DNA from: Rhizobium subbaraonis | GTDB taxonomy: Bacteria > Pseudomonadota > Alphaproteobacteria > Rhizobiales > Rhizobiaceae | Direction: 5' to 3' | Length of the DNA stretch: 64,000 nt | NCBI RefSeq assembly: GCF_900220975.1 | Contig: NZ_OBQD01000003.1 | Span: 124,001-188,000 of the forward strand | Shown: positions 8,212 to 52,431 of the stretch, piece after piece | Position numbering within the stretch: the stretch's first letter is position 1 | Layout: each line of letters begins with the position of its first letter | Made by a program: the position numbers and the translations under genes | Notes under the pieces: model-generated | Seen by the model: the letters and a program-made list of their open reading frames with translations, nothing else | Told to the model about the DNA's origin: nothing | Database searches by the model: none

Positions 8212-8577
8212 TCATTTGCTTGCGATTGCGTTTTCGACGCAAGTTGCGAGCGCTTCGGCCTGGAACGGCTTCTGCAGCACACAGACCTCCGGCCCCACCT
8301 GTGCGCGCACGGCCTTTCCCGATGACGCGGTGATGAAGACGAACGGCGTGGTGCTTTGTCGCTCGCGCAGCATGGTGAACAGGTCGATGCCGCTCATGCC
8401 GTCCATCTGAACATCGGAGACGATGCAGGCACAGGTGGAGACGCATTCGGAGCCCAGGAAATCCTCCGCCGAAACAAAGGCCCTTACCGAAAAGCCAAGC
8501 GATCTGAGAAGGCTGCTGGTCGCCCGACGAACGGCTTCTTCGTCGTCTATCACTGAAACAATGTGGGGAGTTTCCAC
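8212..8577 (-). CDS. Single-domain response regulator receiver
   Basis: A 121-residue CheY-like receiver with no output domain. The acidic pair D11-D12, the phospho-acceptor D55 (VSDVQMDG), T83 (FITASSG) and K103 (LQKPF) are all present, so it should be phosphorylated. Its sequence style is that of the FixJ receiver group. No histidine kinase lies nearby, so its partner is elsewhere. It may be a phosphate sink or competitor for the FixJ-type regulator at 8801-9424, which is an inference from proximity. A 16-bp element at 8654-8669 lies upstream of its start and recurs upstream of the FixJ-type gene. Confidence 0.9.
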   Translation of the reverse strand: METPHIVSVIDDEEAVRRATSSLLRSLGFSVRAFVSAEDFLGSECVSTCACIVSDVQMDGMSGIDLFTMLRERQSTTPFVFITASSGKAVRAQVGPEVCVLQKPFQAEALATCVENAIASK

Positions 8578-8800: not shown

Positions 8801-9424
8801 TCACACCGTCGATCTGGACAGCCCCAGCACTTCCGCCATCCGCACCAGGTCGGCAAATGTCTTGGCCATCATCTTCCGGCTGATCTTGCCGCGGTGAATC
8901 TTGACTGTGATCTCGCTCAGGCCGAGCTCCCCGGCGATCTGCTTGTTCATCAGGCCGGCTGTCGCCATCGCCATGATCTGCTGCTCCCGCGGGGAAAGCG
9001 TCTGGTAGCGGGTGCGGAGCTCGACCTCCGTCCTGTCGGAGCCGCGGACGAGCCTGTCTTTTTCCACCGCGGCCGCGACCGCGTCGAGGATGTCCTGATC
9101 GCGAAAGGGCTTGGCCAGAAAGTCGGCAGCGCCTGCCTTCATGGCCCTGACCGTCATCGGAATGTCGCCATGGCCGGTAACGAAAATCACGGGCGTGTTC
9201 ACGCCCCGCTCGGCGAGCTTCTGGTGAAAGTCGAGACCGCTGGTGAAGGGCAGGCGTACGTCGAGGATCAGGCAGTTCGCATCCGGCAGGCGGGGGTCGT
9301 CATAGAGTTCCTGTGCCGTTGCGAACGTCTTGACGCGGTATCCGACGGATCGGAGGAGGGTGTCCAGCGACTGCCGAACGAGCGGTTCGTCGTCAACGAC
9401 CAGGACAAGGGGGCTTTCCGACAT
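8801..9424 (-). CDS. FixJ/NarL-type two-component response regulator
   Basis: A 207-residue regulator: a receiver domain (residues 1-120) with D11-D12, phospho-acceptor D55 (LILDVRLPF), T83 and K105, then a C-terminal LuxR/FixJ helix-turn-helix (LSPREQQIMAMATAG, NKQIAGELGLSEITVKIHRG). I took the ATG at 9424 (MSESPLVLVV), which has GGAAGAAG upstream; a longer frame from 9517 would add 31 residues without receiver similarity. No cognate kinase is next to it. Its upstream region holds a perfect ATACCCGGGTAT palindrome, which could be an autoregulatory site. It is not the classical nitrogen-fixation FixJ; that identity cannot be claimed from this sequence. Confidence 0.92.
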   Translation of the reverse strand: MSESPLVLVVDDEPLVRQSLDTLLRSVGYRVKTFATAQELYDDPRLPDANCLILDVRLPFTSGLDFHQKLAERGVNTPVIFVTGHGDIPMTVRAMKAGAADFLAKPFRDQDILDAVAAAVEKDRLVRGSDRTEVELRTRYQTLSPREQQIMAMATAGLMNKQIAGELGLSEITVKIHRGKISRKMMAKTFADLVRMAEVLGLSRSTV

Positions 9425-9515: not shown

Positions 9516-9531
9516 AATTATACCCGGGTAT
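9516..9531 (-). promoter_or_regulatory. Palindromic copy of the shared 16-bp element upstream of the FixJ-type gene
   Basis: The minus strand reads ATACCCGGGTATAATT; its first twelve bases are a perfect palindrome. It lies 92-107 bases before the ATG of the FixJ-type regulator. It matches the elements at 8654-8669 and 15125-15140 at most positions. A site for the FixJ-type protein itself is a reasonable but untested reading. Confidence 0.45.
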
Positions 9532-13767: not shown

Positions 13768-14880
13768 ATGAAAAGACTACGCGTGCGGGTCGTCGGCGGT
13801 TCTCTCGGCGGGCTCTTTGCCGCCATCCTGCTTCAGCGCGACGGCCACGACGTCATCGTCTACGAGCGCTCCGCCGCCGGCCTCGGCGGCCGGGGAGCGG
13901 GGCTGGTCGGCCAGCACGACCTGTACGACGTGCTCGGGCGCATCGGATTGCGGGAACTCGCCCAGGTGGGCGTGGAAGCCTTCGAACGCATCTATCTCGA
14001 TGCTGACGGACGGATTTCGGGACGGATCCGCGCGTCGCAGACGCAGATTTCCTGGGATGTTCTCTATGAGGGCGTCTCCTCGATGCTGGCGCCGGGCAGC
14101 CATCTCCTCGGGCGCAAGGTGAGGCGCGTCACCGATGGCGAACGTCAGGCGTCGGTGATGTTTGCGGACGGTACGACCGACACGGCCGATCTCGTCGTCG
14201 GCGCGGACGGGCTCGGCTCGGTCACGCGCGGTGCCGTCAACACGCTGACGCAGAACGACTATGCCGGCTACGTCGCCTGGCGCGGGCTCATTCCGGAAGG
14301 AAAGCTCCCCTCCGGCAGCGCGATCCTGAAAGACCGCTTTGCGTTTTTCGTGATGGCCGGCATCCATGTCCTCGGCTATCTCGTTCCCGGACCGCGCGGC
14401 GAGATGCTGCCGGGCGAGCGTCGCTACAACTGGGTATGGTACAGGAAGGTTGCTGCCGGCGAGATTGAAAGCCTGTTCACCGGCCAGAATGGAAGGGCGA
14501 ACCGCTTCTCGCTTCCGCGCGGAGAATTGTCGCGTGACCGGCTCGAGACGTTGAGGATGGACGCGGCGCGGCTGCTGCCACCGCAGTTCGCCCTTGCCGT
14601 TACGGCGGAAGACGAGCCGTGGATACAGGGCATCTTCGATTATCGCGCCGACAGGATGGCGGGCAATGCCGTCGCCCTTGTGGGGGACGCGGCCTTCGTC
14701 GTGCGACCCCACACGGCGATGGGCGCCTCCAAGGCCGCGGGTGACGCAATGGCGCTTCGCGACAGCCTTGCCCGTTCGCAATCGGTCGACGAAGCCCTGC
14801 GGCGCTATGCTGCGCTGCGCATGCCCGTCGGGGAAGAAATCGCAAGCTATGGCCGCCGGCTGGGCGCTTCCGCACTCTGA
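13768..14880 (+). CDS. FAD-dependent monooxygenase (aromatic hydroxylase family)
   Basis: A 370-residue class A flavoprotein hydroxylase. The N-terminal FAD fold reads RVVGGSLGGLFAAILLQ. The DG motif is VVGADGLGSVTRG. The second FAD motif is VALVGDAAFVVRPHTAMGASKA. The sequence style is like the 2,6-dihydroxypyridine 3-monooxygenase and 6-hydroxynicotinate monooxygenase groups, so an N-heterocycle or hydroxylated aromatic is a plausible substrate, but this is only a family-level guess. ATG 13768 is preceded by GAGGAGCGAGCG. It starts ten bases after the MFS gene, so the two form an operon probably controlled by the divergent LysR protein. Confidence 0.9.
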   Translation: MKRLRVRVVGGSLGGLFAAILLQRDGHDVIVYERSAAGLGGRGAGLVGQHDLYDVLGRIGLRELAQVGVEAFERIYLDADGRISGRIRASQTQISWDVLYEGVSSMLAPGSHLLGRKVRRVTDGERQASVMFADGTTDTADLVVGADGLGSVTRGAVNTLTQNDYAGYVAWRGLIPEGKLPSGSAILKDRFAFFVMAGIHVLGYLVPGPRGEMLPGERRYNWVWYRKVAAGEIESLFTGQNGRANRFSLPRGELSRDRLETLRMDAARLLPPQFALAVTAEDEPWIQGIFDYRADRMAGNAVALVGDAAFVVRPHTAMGASKAAGDAMALRDSLARSQSVDEALRRYAALRMPVGEEIASYGRRLGASAL

Positions 14881-14964
14881 CGCCGGCTGCGGGAGGAGAG
14901 GCACGATGCTCTCCTCCCGTCCGCGTTCGACGGGATGAAAACTGTCCGTTACGCCTGTATTCCG

Positions 14965-15118
14965 ACGGGAAAGACCGCCCGGCGGCGGAGCCGGGCGGTC
15001 TGGCGGAGTTGGGATCCGCTGGCTTCGGACGAGGGGGAAACCCGAAGCTCGGTAGCGGGGAGGGGAGTGCGCTACCGCCTCTTTTGAGGCTGAAACGAGG
15101 TTACTATGCCGGGCGCTT
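14965..15118 (-). ncRNA. Candidate trans-acting small RNA with C/U-rich loops
   Basis: No gene fits the 298 bases between 14880 and 15179, but the minus strand shows an ordered set of hairpins. A TATAAT lies at 15126-15131, so transcription could begin near 15118. Then follow a 5-bp hairpin with AAAA loop (15077-15090), an 8-bp hairpin (15050-15057 with 15070-15077) whose RNA loop is CACUCCCCUCCC, a 7-bp hairpin (15022-15028 with 15042-15048) with loop GUUUCCCCCUCGU, and a 12-bp GC-rich terminal hairpin at 14972-15001. Loops rich in CUCC are a known feature of several alphaproteobacterial small RNAs that pair with Shine-Dalgarno sequences. Expression is not shown, and the 3' U-run is short. 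Confidence 0.5.
14972..15001 (-). terminator. Strong 12-bp GC-rich hairpin, probable end of the candidate small RNA
   Basis: A perfect 12-bp stem (14972-14983 with 14990-15001) and a 6-base loop. On the minus strand it is followed by TTCCC, so the U-run is short; on the plus strand there is no U-run at all. It could also end the monooxygenase transcript 90 bases upstream. Confidence 0.5.
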
Positions 15119-15124
15119 CTTCGA

Positions 15125-15140
15125 AATTATACGGGGGTTT
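15125..15140 (-). promoter_or_regulatory. Third copy of the shared 16-bp element, at the candidate small RNA promoter
   Basis: The minus strand reads AAACCCCCGTATAATT. It differs at only one base from the copy before the receiver gene at 8654-8669. A 9-bp inverted repeat (ATGCCGGGC at 15106-15114 with GCCCGGCAT at 15141-15149) encloses it. No protein gene on the minus strand starts downstream of it, which supports its being the promoter of a non-coding RNA. Confidence 0.4.
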
Positions 15141-15178: not shown

Positions 15179-15637
15179 TCATGCAATCCTTGCTATCACG
15201 CCAACCGCGAGGATCGCAGCCCCGGCGAAATCCGTCACCATGGCGAAATTTTCCTTGGCGTTCCGGTCGCGGTTCATGGCGTGCTTGACCCCTGCCAGCG
15301 CCAGGTAGAGGCCGCCGACCAGCCCCGCCGGGGCCACCCAACCGGGCATCAGCAGGCTCAAGGTTGCGACGAGCCCCATCGCCAGGTTGCCGCAGCCGAT
15401 CTCGGTGACCAGCTTCTCGGCGTCCGGATCATCGATCCCGAATATGGTCTTGGCGGTGAAGGACGGCTGAAGCACCTGCTTGAAGCCGGCAAGCAGCAGC
15501 CTGATGCCGGCGGCCCAGAACACGAACCACTTGCCCACCAGAAACAGCAGGCCCGCGTCCGAGCCCGCTGCCCATTCCGCAAGGATGGACAGGACCGGAA
15601 GGACGAACATCAATGCGGCGACTGCGACGAAATACAT
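15179..15637 (-). CDS. Small four-helix membrane protein, DUF6790-like
   Basis: A 152-residue protein with about four hydrophobic helices (residues 3-20, 28-47, 75-100 and 125-150) and a short polar loop between the second and third. Its layout (MYFVAVAALMFVLPVLSI, GKWFVFWAAGIRLLLAGFKQ) resembles the uncharacterised DUF6790 family from memory. ATG 15637 is supported by GGAG nine bases upstream; a longer frame from 15769 adds an unconserved basic leader. It stands alone between the candidate small RNA and the carboxyspermidine genes. No function can be given. Confidence 0.75.
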   Translation of the reverse strand: MYFVAVAALMFVLPVLSILAEWAAGSDAGLLFLVGKWFVFWAAGIRLLLAGFKQVLQPSFTAKTIFGIDDPDAEKLVTEIGCGNLAMGLVATLSLLMPGWVAPAGLVGGLYLALAGVKHAMNRDRNAKENFAMVTDFAGAAILAVGVIARIA

Positions 15638-15823: not shown

Positions 15824-17062
15824 CTATTCGAACAGCGGGCGCTCCTGGCCGTTCTCGCGGATCCAGGTCGACAGGCCGATCTTGGCGAGAACGGAGAGGA
15901 AGGGCTTGGGCGCCAGTTCCTCGACGTTCGCCATATGCTTGACGTCCCACTCGCCGGTCGCGACCAGCATGGCGGCGGCTACCGGAGGAACGCCGGCGGT
16001 GTAGGAGATGCCCTGGGAGCCGACCTCTTCGTAGGCTTCCTTGTGGTCCGCCACGTTGTAGATGAAGACCTCGCGCTCCTTGCCGTCCTTTGTGCCCTTG
16101 ACGAAGTCGCCGATGCAGGTCTTGCCGGTATATTCCGGTGCGAGCGAGGCCGGGTCGGGCAGGCAGGCCTTGACGACCTTCAGCGGCACGACTTCCGAAC
16201 CGTCGGCGAGCTTGACCGGCTGCTCGGAGAGAAGGCCGATCGACTTCAGGACGGTGAAGACGTTGATGTAGTGGTCGCCGAAGCCCATCCAGAAACGCAC
16301 GTCGGCGCCGTCCATGTTCTTGGCCAGCGAATGCACTTCGTCATGGCCGCAGAGATAGGCGCGGCGGGTGCCGACGACGGGCAGGTCGTAGTCCTTGCCG
16401 ATCTCGAACATCTTGTTGACGTTCCATTCGCCGTTCTGCCACGAATAGACGACGCCGGTGAATTCGCGGAAGTTGATTTCCGGGTCGAAATTGGTGGCGA
16501 AGTACTTGCCGTGGCTGCCGGCGTTGATGTCGACGATGTCGACGTCGGTGACCTTGTCCAGGTACTCGTCCTTTGCGAGCCTGGCATAGGCGTTGACGAC
16601 GCCCGGGTCGAAGCCGGCGCCGAGAATGGCGGTGATGCCCTTCTCCCGGCATTCGTCCGCGCGCTTCCACTCGTAGTTTCCATACCACGGCGGGGTCTCG
16701 CAGATCTTGTTCGGCTCTTCATGGATTGCGGTGTCGATATACGCGACGCCGGTGTCCATGCAGGCGCGCAGCACCGACATGTTGAGGAAGGCGGTGCCGA
16801 CGTTGATGACGATCTCGCAGCCCGTCTTCTTGATGAGCGCCTTCGTGGCCTCGATGTCCAAGGCATCCAAGGCATGGGCTTCCAGTACGCCCGGTTGCTT
16901 CATCGCCTTCTTTTCGTGGACCGAGGCGATGATCGCATCGCATTTGGATTTTGTGCGCGAGGCGATGTGGATGTCGCCCAGCACGTCATTGTTCTGTGCG
17001 CACTTGTGCGCCACCACCTGGGCAACGCCACCCGCGCCGATGATGAGAACGTTCTTTTTCAT
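15824..17062 (-). CDS. Carboxynorspermidine/carboxyspermidine dehydrogenase (saccharopine dehydrogenase family)
   Basis: A 412-residue NADPH-dependent enzyme that condenses aspartate semialdehyde with putrescine or diaminopropane to make carboxyspermidine or carboxynorspermidine. The N-terminal Rossmann motif is LIIGAGGVAQVVAHKCAQN, followed by INVGTAFLNMSVLRACMDTG, AYIDTA and ILGAGFDPGVVNAYARLA, all typical of the CASDH branch rather than lysine-pathway saccharopine dehydrogenase. It lies 52 bases downstream of nspC. Together they form the alternative route to spermidine that does not use S-adenosylmethionine decarboxylase, known in Agrobacterium and Vibrio. Whether the product is spermidine or norspermidine depends on the diamine available. 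Confidence 0.93.
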   Translation of the reverse strand: MKKNVLIIGAGGVAQVVAHKCAQNNDVLGDIHIASRTKSKCDAIIASVHEKKAMKQPGVLEAHALDALDIEATKALIKKTGCEIVINVGTAFLNMSVLRACMDTGVAYIDTAIHEEPNKICETPPWYGNYEWKRADECREKGITAILGAGFDPGVVNAYARLAKDEYLDKVTDVDIVDINAGSHGKYFATNFDPEINFREFTGVVYSWQNGEWNVNKMFEIGKDYDLPVVGTRRAYLCGHDEVHSLAKNMDGADVRFWMGFGDHYINVFTVLKSIGLLSEQPVKLADGSEVVPLKVVKACLPDPASLAPEYTGKTCIGDFVKGTKDGKEREVFIYNVADHKEAYEEVGSQGISYTAGVPPVAAAMLVATGEWDVKHMANVEELAPKPFLSVLAKIGLSTWIRENGQERPLFE

Positions 17063-17114
17063 TTCGGGGTATATCTCCTTGTACCCTTAGCCGTCGTCGC
17101 TGTGAATTTTGACC

Positions 17115-18212
17115 TCAGGAGAGGCTCTGCTCGTAGTCCGCATAGGTGAAGTCGCGGACCGTCCTGATCGAGCCATCCAGTTCGCGGATGGCGATGGCCG
17201 GCATTTTTACGCCGTTGAACCAGTTCTTCTTGACCATTGTATAACCGGCGGCGTCCTGGATCGAGATGCGGTCGCCGACCTTGATTTCGTTTTCGAAGTC
17301 GAACTCGCCGAAGATGTCGCCGGCCAGGCACGACTTGCCGCAGATCATCCAGCGGTGTGGGCCCTTGTTGGGGGTGAGCTTGGCGCTCTCGCGGTAGATC
17401 AGAAGATCCAGCATGTGGGCTTCGATCGATGAATCGACGATCGCAAGGTTCTTGCCGTTGAAAAGCGTGTCGAGCACCGTCACCTCCAGCGTGGTGGACC
17501 TGGTGATCGAGGCCTCGCCGGGCTCCAGATAGACCTGCACGCCGTATTCCCCGGCAAAGCGCTTCAGGCGCTCGGCGAATTGCTCCAGCGGGTAGTTCTC
17601 GCCGGTGAAGTGGATGCCGCCGCCGAGGCTGACCCATTCCGCCTTGCGCAACAGTGGGGCGAACTTCTCCTCGATCGCGCCGAGCATGCGGTCGAAAAGG
17701 TCGAAGTCGCCGTTCTCGCAATTGTTGTGGATCATGAAGCCGGAGATCATGTCCATGACCGGCTCGACCTTCTTCACGTCCCACTCGCCAAGCCTAGAAA
17801 AGGGGCGGGCGGGATCGGCGAGGTCGAAGCTGGACGAGGAGACGCCGGGGTTGAGGCGAAGACCCCGGACGATGCCGGACGATTGCCTGTCGAAGCGCTG
17901 CAACTGGCCGATCGAGTTGAAGATGATCTTGTCGGCGTGGCTGACGACCTCGTCGATCTCGTAGTCGGCATAGGCGACCGAATAGGCGTGCGTCTCCTTG
18001 CCGAAGCGCTCGTGGCCGAGACGCACCTCGTTCAGCGACGAGGACGTCGTGCCGTCCATGTAGTCGCGCATGAAGTCGAACACGCCCCAGGTCGCGAAGC
18101 ACTTCAGCGCCAACAGAGCCTTCGCGCCGGAAAGCTCGCGGAGCCTTGCGATCTTTTCCATGTTCAGAAGCAGCTTCGACTTGTCGATCAGGTAGTAGGG
18201 CGTCTGGATCAT
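17115..18212 (-). CDS. nspC: Carboxynorspermidine/carboxyspermidine decarboxylase
   Basis: A PLP enzyme of the alanine-racemase fold that decarboxylates carboxy(nor)spermidine to spermidine or norspermidine. The 365 residues begin MIQTPYYLIDKSKLL; K37 in LLALKCFATWGVFD is the expected PLP lysine; SLGGGIHFTGENYP binds phosphate, and later blocks such as LEPGEASITRS and CLAGDIFGEFDF fit NspC. ATG 18212 was chosen over an in-frame start at 18290 on similarity, although its ribosome site is weak. It is the first gene of the pair with the dehydrogenase, and the long upstream gap (18213-18709) may hold control elements. Confidence 0.94.
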   Translation of the reverse strand: MIQTPYYLIDKSKLLLNMEKIARLRELSGAKALLALKCFATWGVFDFMRDYMDGTTSSSLNEVRLGHERFGKETHAYSVAYADYEIDEVVSHADKIIFNSIGQLQRFDRQSSGIVRGLRLNPGVSSSSFDLADPARPFSRLGEWDVKKVEPVMDMISGFMIHNNCENGDFDLFDRMLGAIEEKFAPLLRKAEWVSLGGGIHFTGENYPLEQFAERLKRFAGEYGVQVYLEPGEASITRSTTLEVTVLDTLFNGKNLAIVDSSIEAHMLDLLIYRESAKLTPNKGPHRWMICGKSCLAGDIFGEFDFENEIKVGDRISIQDAAGYTMVKKNWFNGVKMPAIAIRELDGSIRTVRDFTYADYEQSLS

Positions 18213-18709
18213 CAATTCTGGTCTTTCGTGGAGCGGATGTTGCAGCCCGATGAGCGCACCCGTAGCCGGCGCCCATCTGGTAGGTCCCATGTCTACTCGA
18301 TGCGCTCGGGCATCGCGGTCTTCAGGTCAGGGAACTGTCATCTTCAATCCGGAAGAGCCTGCCATTCGCGCAAGGCACCGGCAGCGGCGTTTCTGTCTCT
18401 CTTGGCGTTCGCGTGCCGGCATGCGGGTCACCCCGACCGTTTACAGCGCAAATGTGACGGTCGGGCTACAATCGCGCGCCAAAGCGCGACAACTCCTGAC
18501 CTGTGTGAGAGAGCAAAGACAGCATGGCGCCTATCTAGCCGTACGGCCGGGGAAGTCAAGGCAAGCCGCATCTTGGCCGCTATCCGGCCCCTTGGTCTGG
18601 CTCTTGCGAAAACAGGGCAGGATGGTATCTGACGGAGACGCGCCTGCGGGTCTTTGCGGCATTGCAAATTCGACATGGTCGGCGCACCCATCGCCATCGG
18701 AGCGTTCCC
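18213..18709. other. 497-base non-coding gap with a 9-bp inverted repeat
   Basis: No coding sequence is evident between the divergent nspC and pseudouridine synthase genes. It must hold the promoters of both. The clearest structure is CCCGACCGT at 18432-18440 paired with ACGGTCGGG at 18457-18465, separated by 16 bases. This lies about 220 bases upstream of the nspC start and could be part of a long leader or a terminator-like hairpin. I found no match to a polyamine leader that I could defend. Confidence 0.5.
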
Positions 18710-52191: not shown

Positions 52192-52431
52192 TATGACCCC
52201 CGGGCTTGCCGGCGCGGGGCGTCGGCGGGACAGGAATTCGCTTCTTTAGAAATGGTTCCGGAACCTTTTCCAGGCCCGGTCATTGTGGTCGCAGGAGGCG
52301 TGGCCGTGTCAACCGGACATGACGGGAATGGAGAACACGGGAATTTTTCCGGTTTCTTCCTGTGGCCAACGCAACGGCAGTCGAGCTTCTTACCCGTTCG
52401 GCCTGCGCCTTCTGCTTCCCGTAGACTGAAA

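Follow-up and report, generated by a model that had tools for sequence, protein, structure and literature searches.

What is encoded by the gap between two convergent genes at positions 14965 to 15118 of the window, the stretch of 64,000 nucleotides of Rhizobium subbaraonis DNA analyzed here, and what would switch it on? The minus strand of this gap contains three hairpins (H1, H2, and H3), a 12-bp GC-rich terminal stem, a TATAAT, and an extra hairpin, H0. Very probably the gap encodes a small RNA (sRNA) from a rhizobial family that is uncatalogued and often present in several copies per genome. As to its function, we consider it probable on balance that this RNA of ~123 nt acts in trans, that its C-rich loops pair with Shine-Dalgarno regions, and that it is driven by a two-component system through a dyad in its promoter.

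Genomic context and structure of the predicted RNA

The gap is flanked by an FAD-monooxygenase gene (~13768-14880, plus strand) and a DUF6790-like gene, which ends at 15179 on the minus strand and scores 26.4 bits, slightly under the Pfam cut-off of 27.1. Open reading frames of at least 60 amino acids that reach into the gap are short (99 amino acids at most) and are taken for chance. A strong inverted repeat, GGGAGGAGAG...CTCTCCTCCC (14890-14919, plus strand), lies directly 3' of the FAD-monooxygenase gene; it probably is the terminator of this gene, and the loops of the sRNA could base-pair with its G-rich arm. An adjoining pair of carboxynorspermidine synthase-like and decarboxylase-like genes, both under the NCBIfam cut-offs, occupies 15824-18290 on the minus strand.

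The predicted RNA extends on the minus strand from ~15091, a start derived from the conserved -10 box described below, to ~14969. Hairpin H0 (15077-15090; GCCUC-AAAA-GAGGC), recognized from the fold, sits before H1 (15051-15076), whose loop CACUCCCCUCCC is anti-Shine-Dalgarno-like according to fold, covariation, and loop tests. The elements that follow are delimited by fold and covariation: H2 (15022-15048), with a C-rich loop that reads GUUUCCCCCUCGU on a 7-bp stem or UUUCCCCCUCG on one of 8 bp; H3 (15003-15019; GCGGA...UCCGC); and the terminal stem (14972-15001) with the loop UCCGCC and a short U-tract, UUU, followed by CCC. A terminator scan did not call the terminal stem, and a promoter scan did not find a sigma-70-like site upstream of the hairpins.

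The predicted fold has a free energy of -67.1 kcal/mol, compared to -48.2 +/- 3.7 for 200 dinucleotide shuffles (z = -5.1), none of which was equally stable. The minus-strand hairpins and the 12-bp GC-rich terminal stem, which had been proposed in an earlier sequence-only reading of this DNA, are thus all present. The same reading had named covariation among homologues as a check. In alignments fitted to the structure model, 55 distinct copies have both-sided changes at 30 of 31 base pairs, and 94.4% of the cells pair. None of 500 shuffles of these copies was as high, and slid structures give 10-17 such pairs. An earlier alignment of 14 copies, likewise fitted to the model, had both-sided changes at 27 of the 31 pairs. 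When the matched stretches were folded individually and a helix was counted as kept at 60% or more of its pairs, all 55 copies retained the terminal stem, 51 retained H2, 49 retained H3, and 44 retained H1. With a plain MAFFT alignment of 14 copies as input, the consensus structure from RNAalifold is limited to the terminal stem and three pairs of H0. The structure of this sRNA family is conserved, and its conservation is compensatory.

Distribution of the sRNA family

By blastn, the sRNA sequence was detected in three of seven genomes of the window's genus, its own genome included, and in one genome of another genus (E 1.3e-7). Plain blastn over 297 family genomes matched 15 of them; the eleven weakest loci were rejected as apparent chance matches in terminators or coding sequence. 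A covariance model built from four copies and spanning H1 to the terminal stem (R1) matched at least 17 places in at least 14 of 394 family genomes. Three of these places were set aside, two (L033 and L034) because they are devoid of the family architecture and one (L035) because it is ar14. The searches of the 394 genomes scored nine of many candidates per genome, and all genome tallies derived from them are lower bounds. With a model built from 14 copies (R2), 35 places were found in 23 of 40 genomes of genus g30 and 17 places in 8 of 20 genomes of genus g63, up to four per genome in either genus; by inference, g30 is Rhizobium and g63 Phyllobacterium. Thirty of the 35 g30 places were taken as loci (26 new and four known), plus L186 later, and all 17 places in g63 were used (15 new and two known). 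In the window's own genome, the known place was the sole R2 match. Another search yielded seven places, and one of them (L040) was discarded for lack of the architecture. A second of the seven (L039, genome G407), from another hyphomicrobial family, has a similar architecture, C-rich loops, and 50 bits with R2; a dyad was not seen there by eye, and L039 was kept out of the family set.

The final model, R3, was built from 57 copies (55 distinct), among them the window copy, and does not contain the promoter. It matched at least 16 of the 394 genomes and at least 8 of 109 genera. The window copy (14966-15077, minus strand) scored 91.4 bits. From the same genome 429 kb were searched, made up of the window, the ar14 loci, and 360 kb of the window's contig; the ar14 genes reached at most 33.8 bits there, and the next other place 20.8. 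Scores of 62-82 bits were obtained in R. etli, R. leguminosarum ATCC 14479, Rhizobium sp. T136 and T1473, and S. medicae WSM419; the copy on p42f of R. etli CFN 42 is the same stretch as L124. The family thus occurs in Rhizobium, Phyllobacterium, Sinorhizobium medicae, and the window's genus, with up to four copies per genome. A search of open-access full texts did not find a published description of it; the p42f copy may already be recorded in the tiling-array tables for R. etli (PMC2881028).

Different genes adjoin different copies. The FAD-monooxygenase gene also adjoins the sRNA in two Rhizobium genomes (L028 and L029), which are the same two that recur among 80 named loci (as L053 and L041). 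In G003, a genome of the window's genus, only the last 77 FAD-monooxygenase residues match beside the sRNA (L023 and L210), and the distance from the sRNA to the regulator and AraC-type genes is shorter than in the window, which looks like a loss of the intervening genes.

Promoter architecture

Upstream of the sRNA copies lies a 17-mer, AWACC-N3-GTATA-N-TTW. Among the 55 training copies, 53 exceed a score of 10, compared to 2 of 4608 background stretches, each 155 nt long. The window 17-mer scores 17.8 with full training. When the window's genus was left out of the training, the five copies from this genus scored 10.9-17.4 and the window copy 13.8; its dyad is among the weaker ones of the family. 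Six later copies, found by the promoter-free model R3 and absent from the 17-mer training, all carry the 17-mer (scores 12.4-24.6). Among five copies found by blastn with queries that contained the promoter, four score 18.8-24.9 and one (L207) 7.2. The dyad was not found within 170 nt upstream of the four ar14 genes of the same genome (scores -10.5 to 4.9).

Of 65 copies examined, 63 scored above 10, and 50 non-redundant copies were aligned on the 17-mer. Exactly 20 nt after it, TA is present in 46 and TAnnnT in 40 of these 50; at the other offsets from 12 to 31, TA occurs in four copies at most. On the minus strand of the window this position is the predicted -10 box TAACCT (15098-15103), located 17 bp after a weak -35-like element, TTTCGA (15121-15126), whose TT is found in 93% and 83% of the 50 copies. 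A distance of 17 bp is the expected spacing of -35 and -10 boxes. The dyad itself (15129-15140, minus strand) reads AAAC-CCCC-GTAT in the window, the family consensus being ATAC-N4-GTAT (AWAC-N4-GTAT). Centered at about -43, it looks like an activator site and is the predicted site of a response regulator. The TATAAT that the sequence-only reading had placed before the hairpins does exist (15131-15126) and spans the right half of the dyad; it is not kept in many copies. Because the conserved TAnnnT falls 20 nt after the 17-mer, the TATAAT is more likely a part of the dyad centered at about -43 than the -10 box, and because the predicted -10 box of the window is TAACCT, the RNA should start at ~15091 and not at 15118. 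A TATAAT before an sRNA thus need not be its -10 box.

The promoter pattern had 18 matches in seven of eight genomes searched, compared to five for the reversed pattern. Ten of the 18 are known sRNA copies. One of the other eight precedes a gene for a small Gly-rich protein and one a presumed Rrf2-type regulator gene; at the remainder, apart from L167, which was not assigned either way, an sRNA of the family was not seen on reading.

A candidate regulator and its putative regulon

The window encodes a response regulator (8801-9424, minus strand) with a receiver (PF00072) and a GerE domain (PF00196), which is a candidate activator of the sRNA. It scores 192.5 bits with the FixJ model NF006900, missing the equivalog cut-off of 255, and is therefore referred to as FixJ-like and not as FixJ. 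Its gene is preceded by the perfect palindrome ATACCCGGGTAT (9520-9531, minus strand), with TAGGTG (9494-9489) at the -10 place. In the 429 kb of own sequence, the dyad combined with the -10 TA occurs at two places, before the sRNA and before this regulator gene 5.6 kb away. In G003, an identical palindrome 17-mer and -10 box lie 2.6 kb from the sRNA dyad of that genome. A stand-alone receiver-domain protein in the window (8212-8577, minus strand) has a dyad upstream (8669-8658) without TA at the exact -10 offset. The TodT/StyR-type regulators of the FixJ family share the receiver and the GerE/LuxR helix-turn-helix with the window protein, and their boxes are AAAC-N4-GTTT-like palindromes. The window regulator differs from the exemplars of the FixJ family in falling under the FixJ cut-off, and its site is a predicted one.

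The link between the sRNA and regulators of this type extends beyond the window. Of 65 distinct copies, 12, which fall into about four sequence groups, have a FixJ-class regulator gene (E <1e-40) beside them; counted by loci these are 13 of 67, L184 being the same as L037 and L205 the same as L124. Such genes were found in none of 108 own-genome pieces (3.1 kb) and in four of 68 pieces from FAD-monooxygenase loci. Against all 176 control pieces, this corresponds to a raw Fisher p of 4.6e-5 that ignores kinship. Twelve 20-kb regions around copies (240 kb) contain 22 further dyads scoring above 10, the sRNAs' own excluded, compared to one in the 360 kb of own flank, which represents one genome. 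A FixJ-type regulator gene is present in eight of these regions and was not seen in the other four (L211-L213 of the window's genus and L219). As a planned second dyad control, 34 FAD-monooxygenase loci gave 12 dyads in 307 kb; they were rejected as a neutral control, because among the dyads that have a -10 TA there, two belong to sRNA copies and others precede regulon-type genes.

Some of the further dyads precede genes that suggest a common regulon. At L220, dyads with a -10 TA are located before a histidine kinase gene, which lies directly upstream of a receiver-GerE regulator gene, before an FdhF/YdeP oxidoreductase gene, and before a formate/nitrite transporter gene. L221 has the same dyad-bearing set, judged by the resemblance of the translated starts. 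Dyad and -10 box also precede FdhF/YdeP in L049 and a kinase in L060 and L065, where the names again rest on resemblance. On contig 43 of the window's genome, an FdhF/YdeP gene (105109-107421; 79% identical to that of L220) adjoins a related kinase gene (107498-109441; 37% identical), with dyads between them and GATCCT at the -10 place. The FdhF/YdeP protein belongs to the respective NCBIfam family (965 bits, cut-off 582) and does not reach the acid-resistance YdeP model (1013 vs 1473); that acid or organic acids are the signal would be a guess. In Sphingomonas echinoides (L086), outside the Rhizobiales, the dyad with a -10 TA occurs before genes that by resemblance encode an FAD-monooxygenase and a lone receiver. 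In genus g63 (L217, L218, and L219), dyads precede genes for small Gly/His-rich secreted-looking proteins, the malonate decarboxylase alpha subunit, and a type III polyketide synthase-like protein. At six other loci (L045, L050, L051, L055, L056, and L066), a near-identical dyad, AGACCTCTGTATAG, with the -10 box TAGCCT is found before a gene for a small conserved protein of ~155 amino acids.

Is the dyad a regulatory site at all? It might be merely a promoter that was passed on as the sRNA family duplicated, as the copies are of common descent and the dyad could be a conserved core promoter. We regard this as unlikely, for the same dyad and -10 spacing precede the histidine kinase, FdhF/YdeP, and formate/nitrite transporter genes, and the palindrome before the response regulator gene is perfect.

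Loop composition and predicted pairing with ribosome-binding regions

The loops are C-rich; the expected motif counts given here come from shuffled loops. CCUCC occurs in the H2 loop of 29 of 55 copies (12.5 expected) and in the H3 loop of 15 (2.1 expected), and the H1 loop contains CCUCCC in nine copies (2.3 expected). CCC is present in the H2 loop of 53 copies. For plain CUCC, the count in H2 (31 vs 24.1 expected) is inside the shuffle range, and in the terminal loop this motif is rarer than expected (2 vs 6.4). In several Phyllobacterium copies, the loops are C-runs without CUCC.

Pairing was assessed with the 309 predicted genes of the window's contig. For the H1 loop, pairing with the regions upstream of gene starts is favored over coding sequence by -0.89 kcal/mol, and none of 30 shuffled loops was as low. 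This preference beyond all shuffles is in line with the anti-Shine-Dalgarno-like character that had been ascribed to the C-rich loops in the sequence-only reading. The preference is weaker for H2, with 3 of 30 shuffles as low; the count was 1 of 30 for H3 and 13 of 30 for the terminal loop, which has no such preference. When absolute energies are compared, the real H1 and H2 loops are predicted to bind the start-upstream regions less strongly than their shuffled versions, and therefore only the contrast between start and coding regions counts. The preference of H1 fits a blocking of ribosome sites, modestly. The supposed regulon of the sRNA itself is not conspicuous among the predicted partners: twelve neighborhood or regulon genes were not top partners (best rank 23 of 309), the starts of the response regulator, DUF6790, CANSDC, and histidine kinase genes being off by some bases.

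Taking promoter, regulator, and loops together, we infer that the minus strand of the gap is transcribed from ~15091, using the weak -35 and the TAnnnT -10 box, into a trans-acting member of a Rhizobiaceae multi-hairpin family with C-rich loops. The activator would bind AWAC-N4-GTAT directly upstream of the -35 element and most likely is a FixJ/NarL-type response regulator, the 8801-9424 protein being the first candidate. Base pairing of the loops with G-rich Shine-Dalgarno regions would then reduce the translation of several mRNAs, a mode of action that has been proposed for the alpha-r14 and CcsR RNAs. There may be an even chance of a wider model, in which a Rhizobiaceae FixJ-type system (kinase, regulator, lone receivers, FdhF/YdeP, and formate/nitrite transporter) directly drives these multi-copy RNAs, so that a phosphorelay signal is converted into a broad, dosage-dependent dampening of translation. 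If this is true, plant-associated bacteria gain an sRNA family without an Rfam entry, for which both a candidate regulator and its DNA site can be named. For anti-Shine-Dalgarno RNAs of alphaproteobacteria, published links are to RpoH sigma factors (CcsR; PMC10253847) and, in the case of NfeR1, to NtrBC (PMC10746234). Control by a FixJ-type module that has a regulon of its own would add another input to such RNAs besides RpoH and NtrBC.

Relation to known RNAs and alternative explanations

At gathering thresholds, Rfam has no match at the sRNA locus. At relaxed thresholds the best match is ar14 (RF02344), full-length and weak, with 22.7 bits where the gathering score is 58.8; membership in the alpha-r families, which the sequence-only reading had left open, is thus not supported by the Rfam models. 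Could it be a divergent alpha-r14/CcsR ('cuckoo') RNA, which has kept the common origin and job and whose loop motifs have degenerated? The full-length ar14 match, although far under the gathering threshold, speaks for this, as do the 15.8-34.4 bits that the own ar14 genes reach with R2 and the similarity between the H1 loop CACUCCCCUCCC and the ar14 loop CACUCCUCCUCCC. Several hairpins and several copies per genome are also known of SmelA075/SmelA099 (PMC3927594). However, the genome contains four true ar14 genes (L020 and L021; contigs 47 and 50), three of them in tandem within ~750 bases, and their upstream 170 nt are all devoid of the dyad. An Rfam scan of 17 family loci (E up to 1 or 0.5) found ar14 only at L036 (27.3 bits) and L206 (26.8 bits). 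Moreover, exact CCUCCUCCC does not occur in the window loops (CACUCCCCUCCC, UUUCCCCCUCG, and UCCGCC), the H1 motif being related and not identical to it, and the conserved H3 is an extra element. We consider such a divergent ar14 RNA a rather doubtful alternative, the strongest one nevertheless. The window RNA is kept apart from ar14 because two of the ar14 features examined, the score and the identical CCUCCUCCC loops, are lacking. It is assigned to a distinct family that has a promoter type of its own and that, by inference, works like the ar14/NfeR1 and CcsR RNAs.

The resemblance to ar14/NfeR1 (RF02344; SmelA075) comprises several hairpins, CU-rich anti-Shine-Dalgarno loops, a terminator-like last hairpin, multiple copies, and occurrence in Rhizobiaceae. 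NfeR1 is likewise tied to a two-component system, NtrBC (PMC10746234). The predicted length is near the ~123 nt of ar14, but the window RNA has five hairpins (H0 to H3 and the terminal stem) instead of three; in ar14, three hairpins carry the same CCUCCUCCC loop, whereas the window family has variable loops, the conserved H3, and the AWAC-N4-GTAT promoter dyad. The CcsR1-4/cuckoo RNAs of Rhodobacter and other alphaproteobacteria share hairpins with anti-Shine-Dalgarno loops, and for RSs0680a such hairpins have been proposed to bind the ribosome sites of several genes (PMC3927594). These RNAs are marked by CCUCCUCCC in at least two loops, to which the H1 motif of the window RNA is related without being identical, and by an adjoining DUF1127 gene (CIN1 locus). 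In contrast, CcsR is processed from the transcript of a DUF1127 gene with an RpoHI/RpoHII promoter (PMC10253847), and the promoter of the window copy is of another type; its neighbors were identified as FAD monooxygenase and DUF6790-like, neither as DUF1127. PmaR of Agrobacterium also uses a C-rich loop sequence for pairing. It was ruled out as a family member by its published structure, a single long spoon-like hairpin; it is restricted to Agrobacterium species and one Rhizobium strain and has been described as not anti-Shine-Dalgarno (PMC6234868).

Two further explanations concern the hairpins themselves. Their similarity and repetition within one RNA, and the C-run loops without CUCC in several Phyllobacterium copies, would also suit an sRNA that titrates a protein, for instance a C- or hairpin-binding regulator, instead of pairing with mRNA. 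This is improbable in view of the loop order in H1, which prefers start regions, and of the description of the ar14 RNA NfeR1 as an antisense regulator (PMC10746234). Still less probable is that the hairpins mainly terminate the DUF6790-like mRNA and form its processed 3' end, or that they serve both convergent genes as a bidirectional terminator. The DUF6790-like gene does read into the gap between these genes, but a conserved promoter-like site of their own precedes the hairpins, the copies adjoin different genes, and the conserved, covarying hairpins are more than a terminator needs. We thus prefer the sRNA that would act in trans on ribosome-binding regions. Elsewhere in the window, Atu_At1 (52297-52404, plus strand; 109.1 bits, gathering score 60) is the sole Rfam match above threshold.
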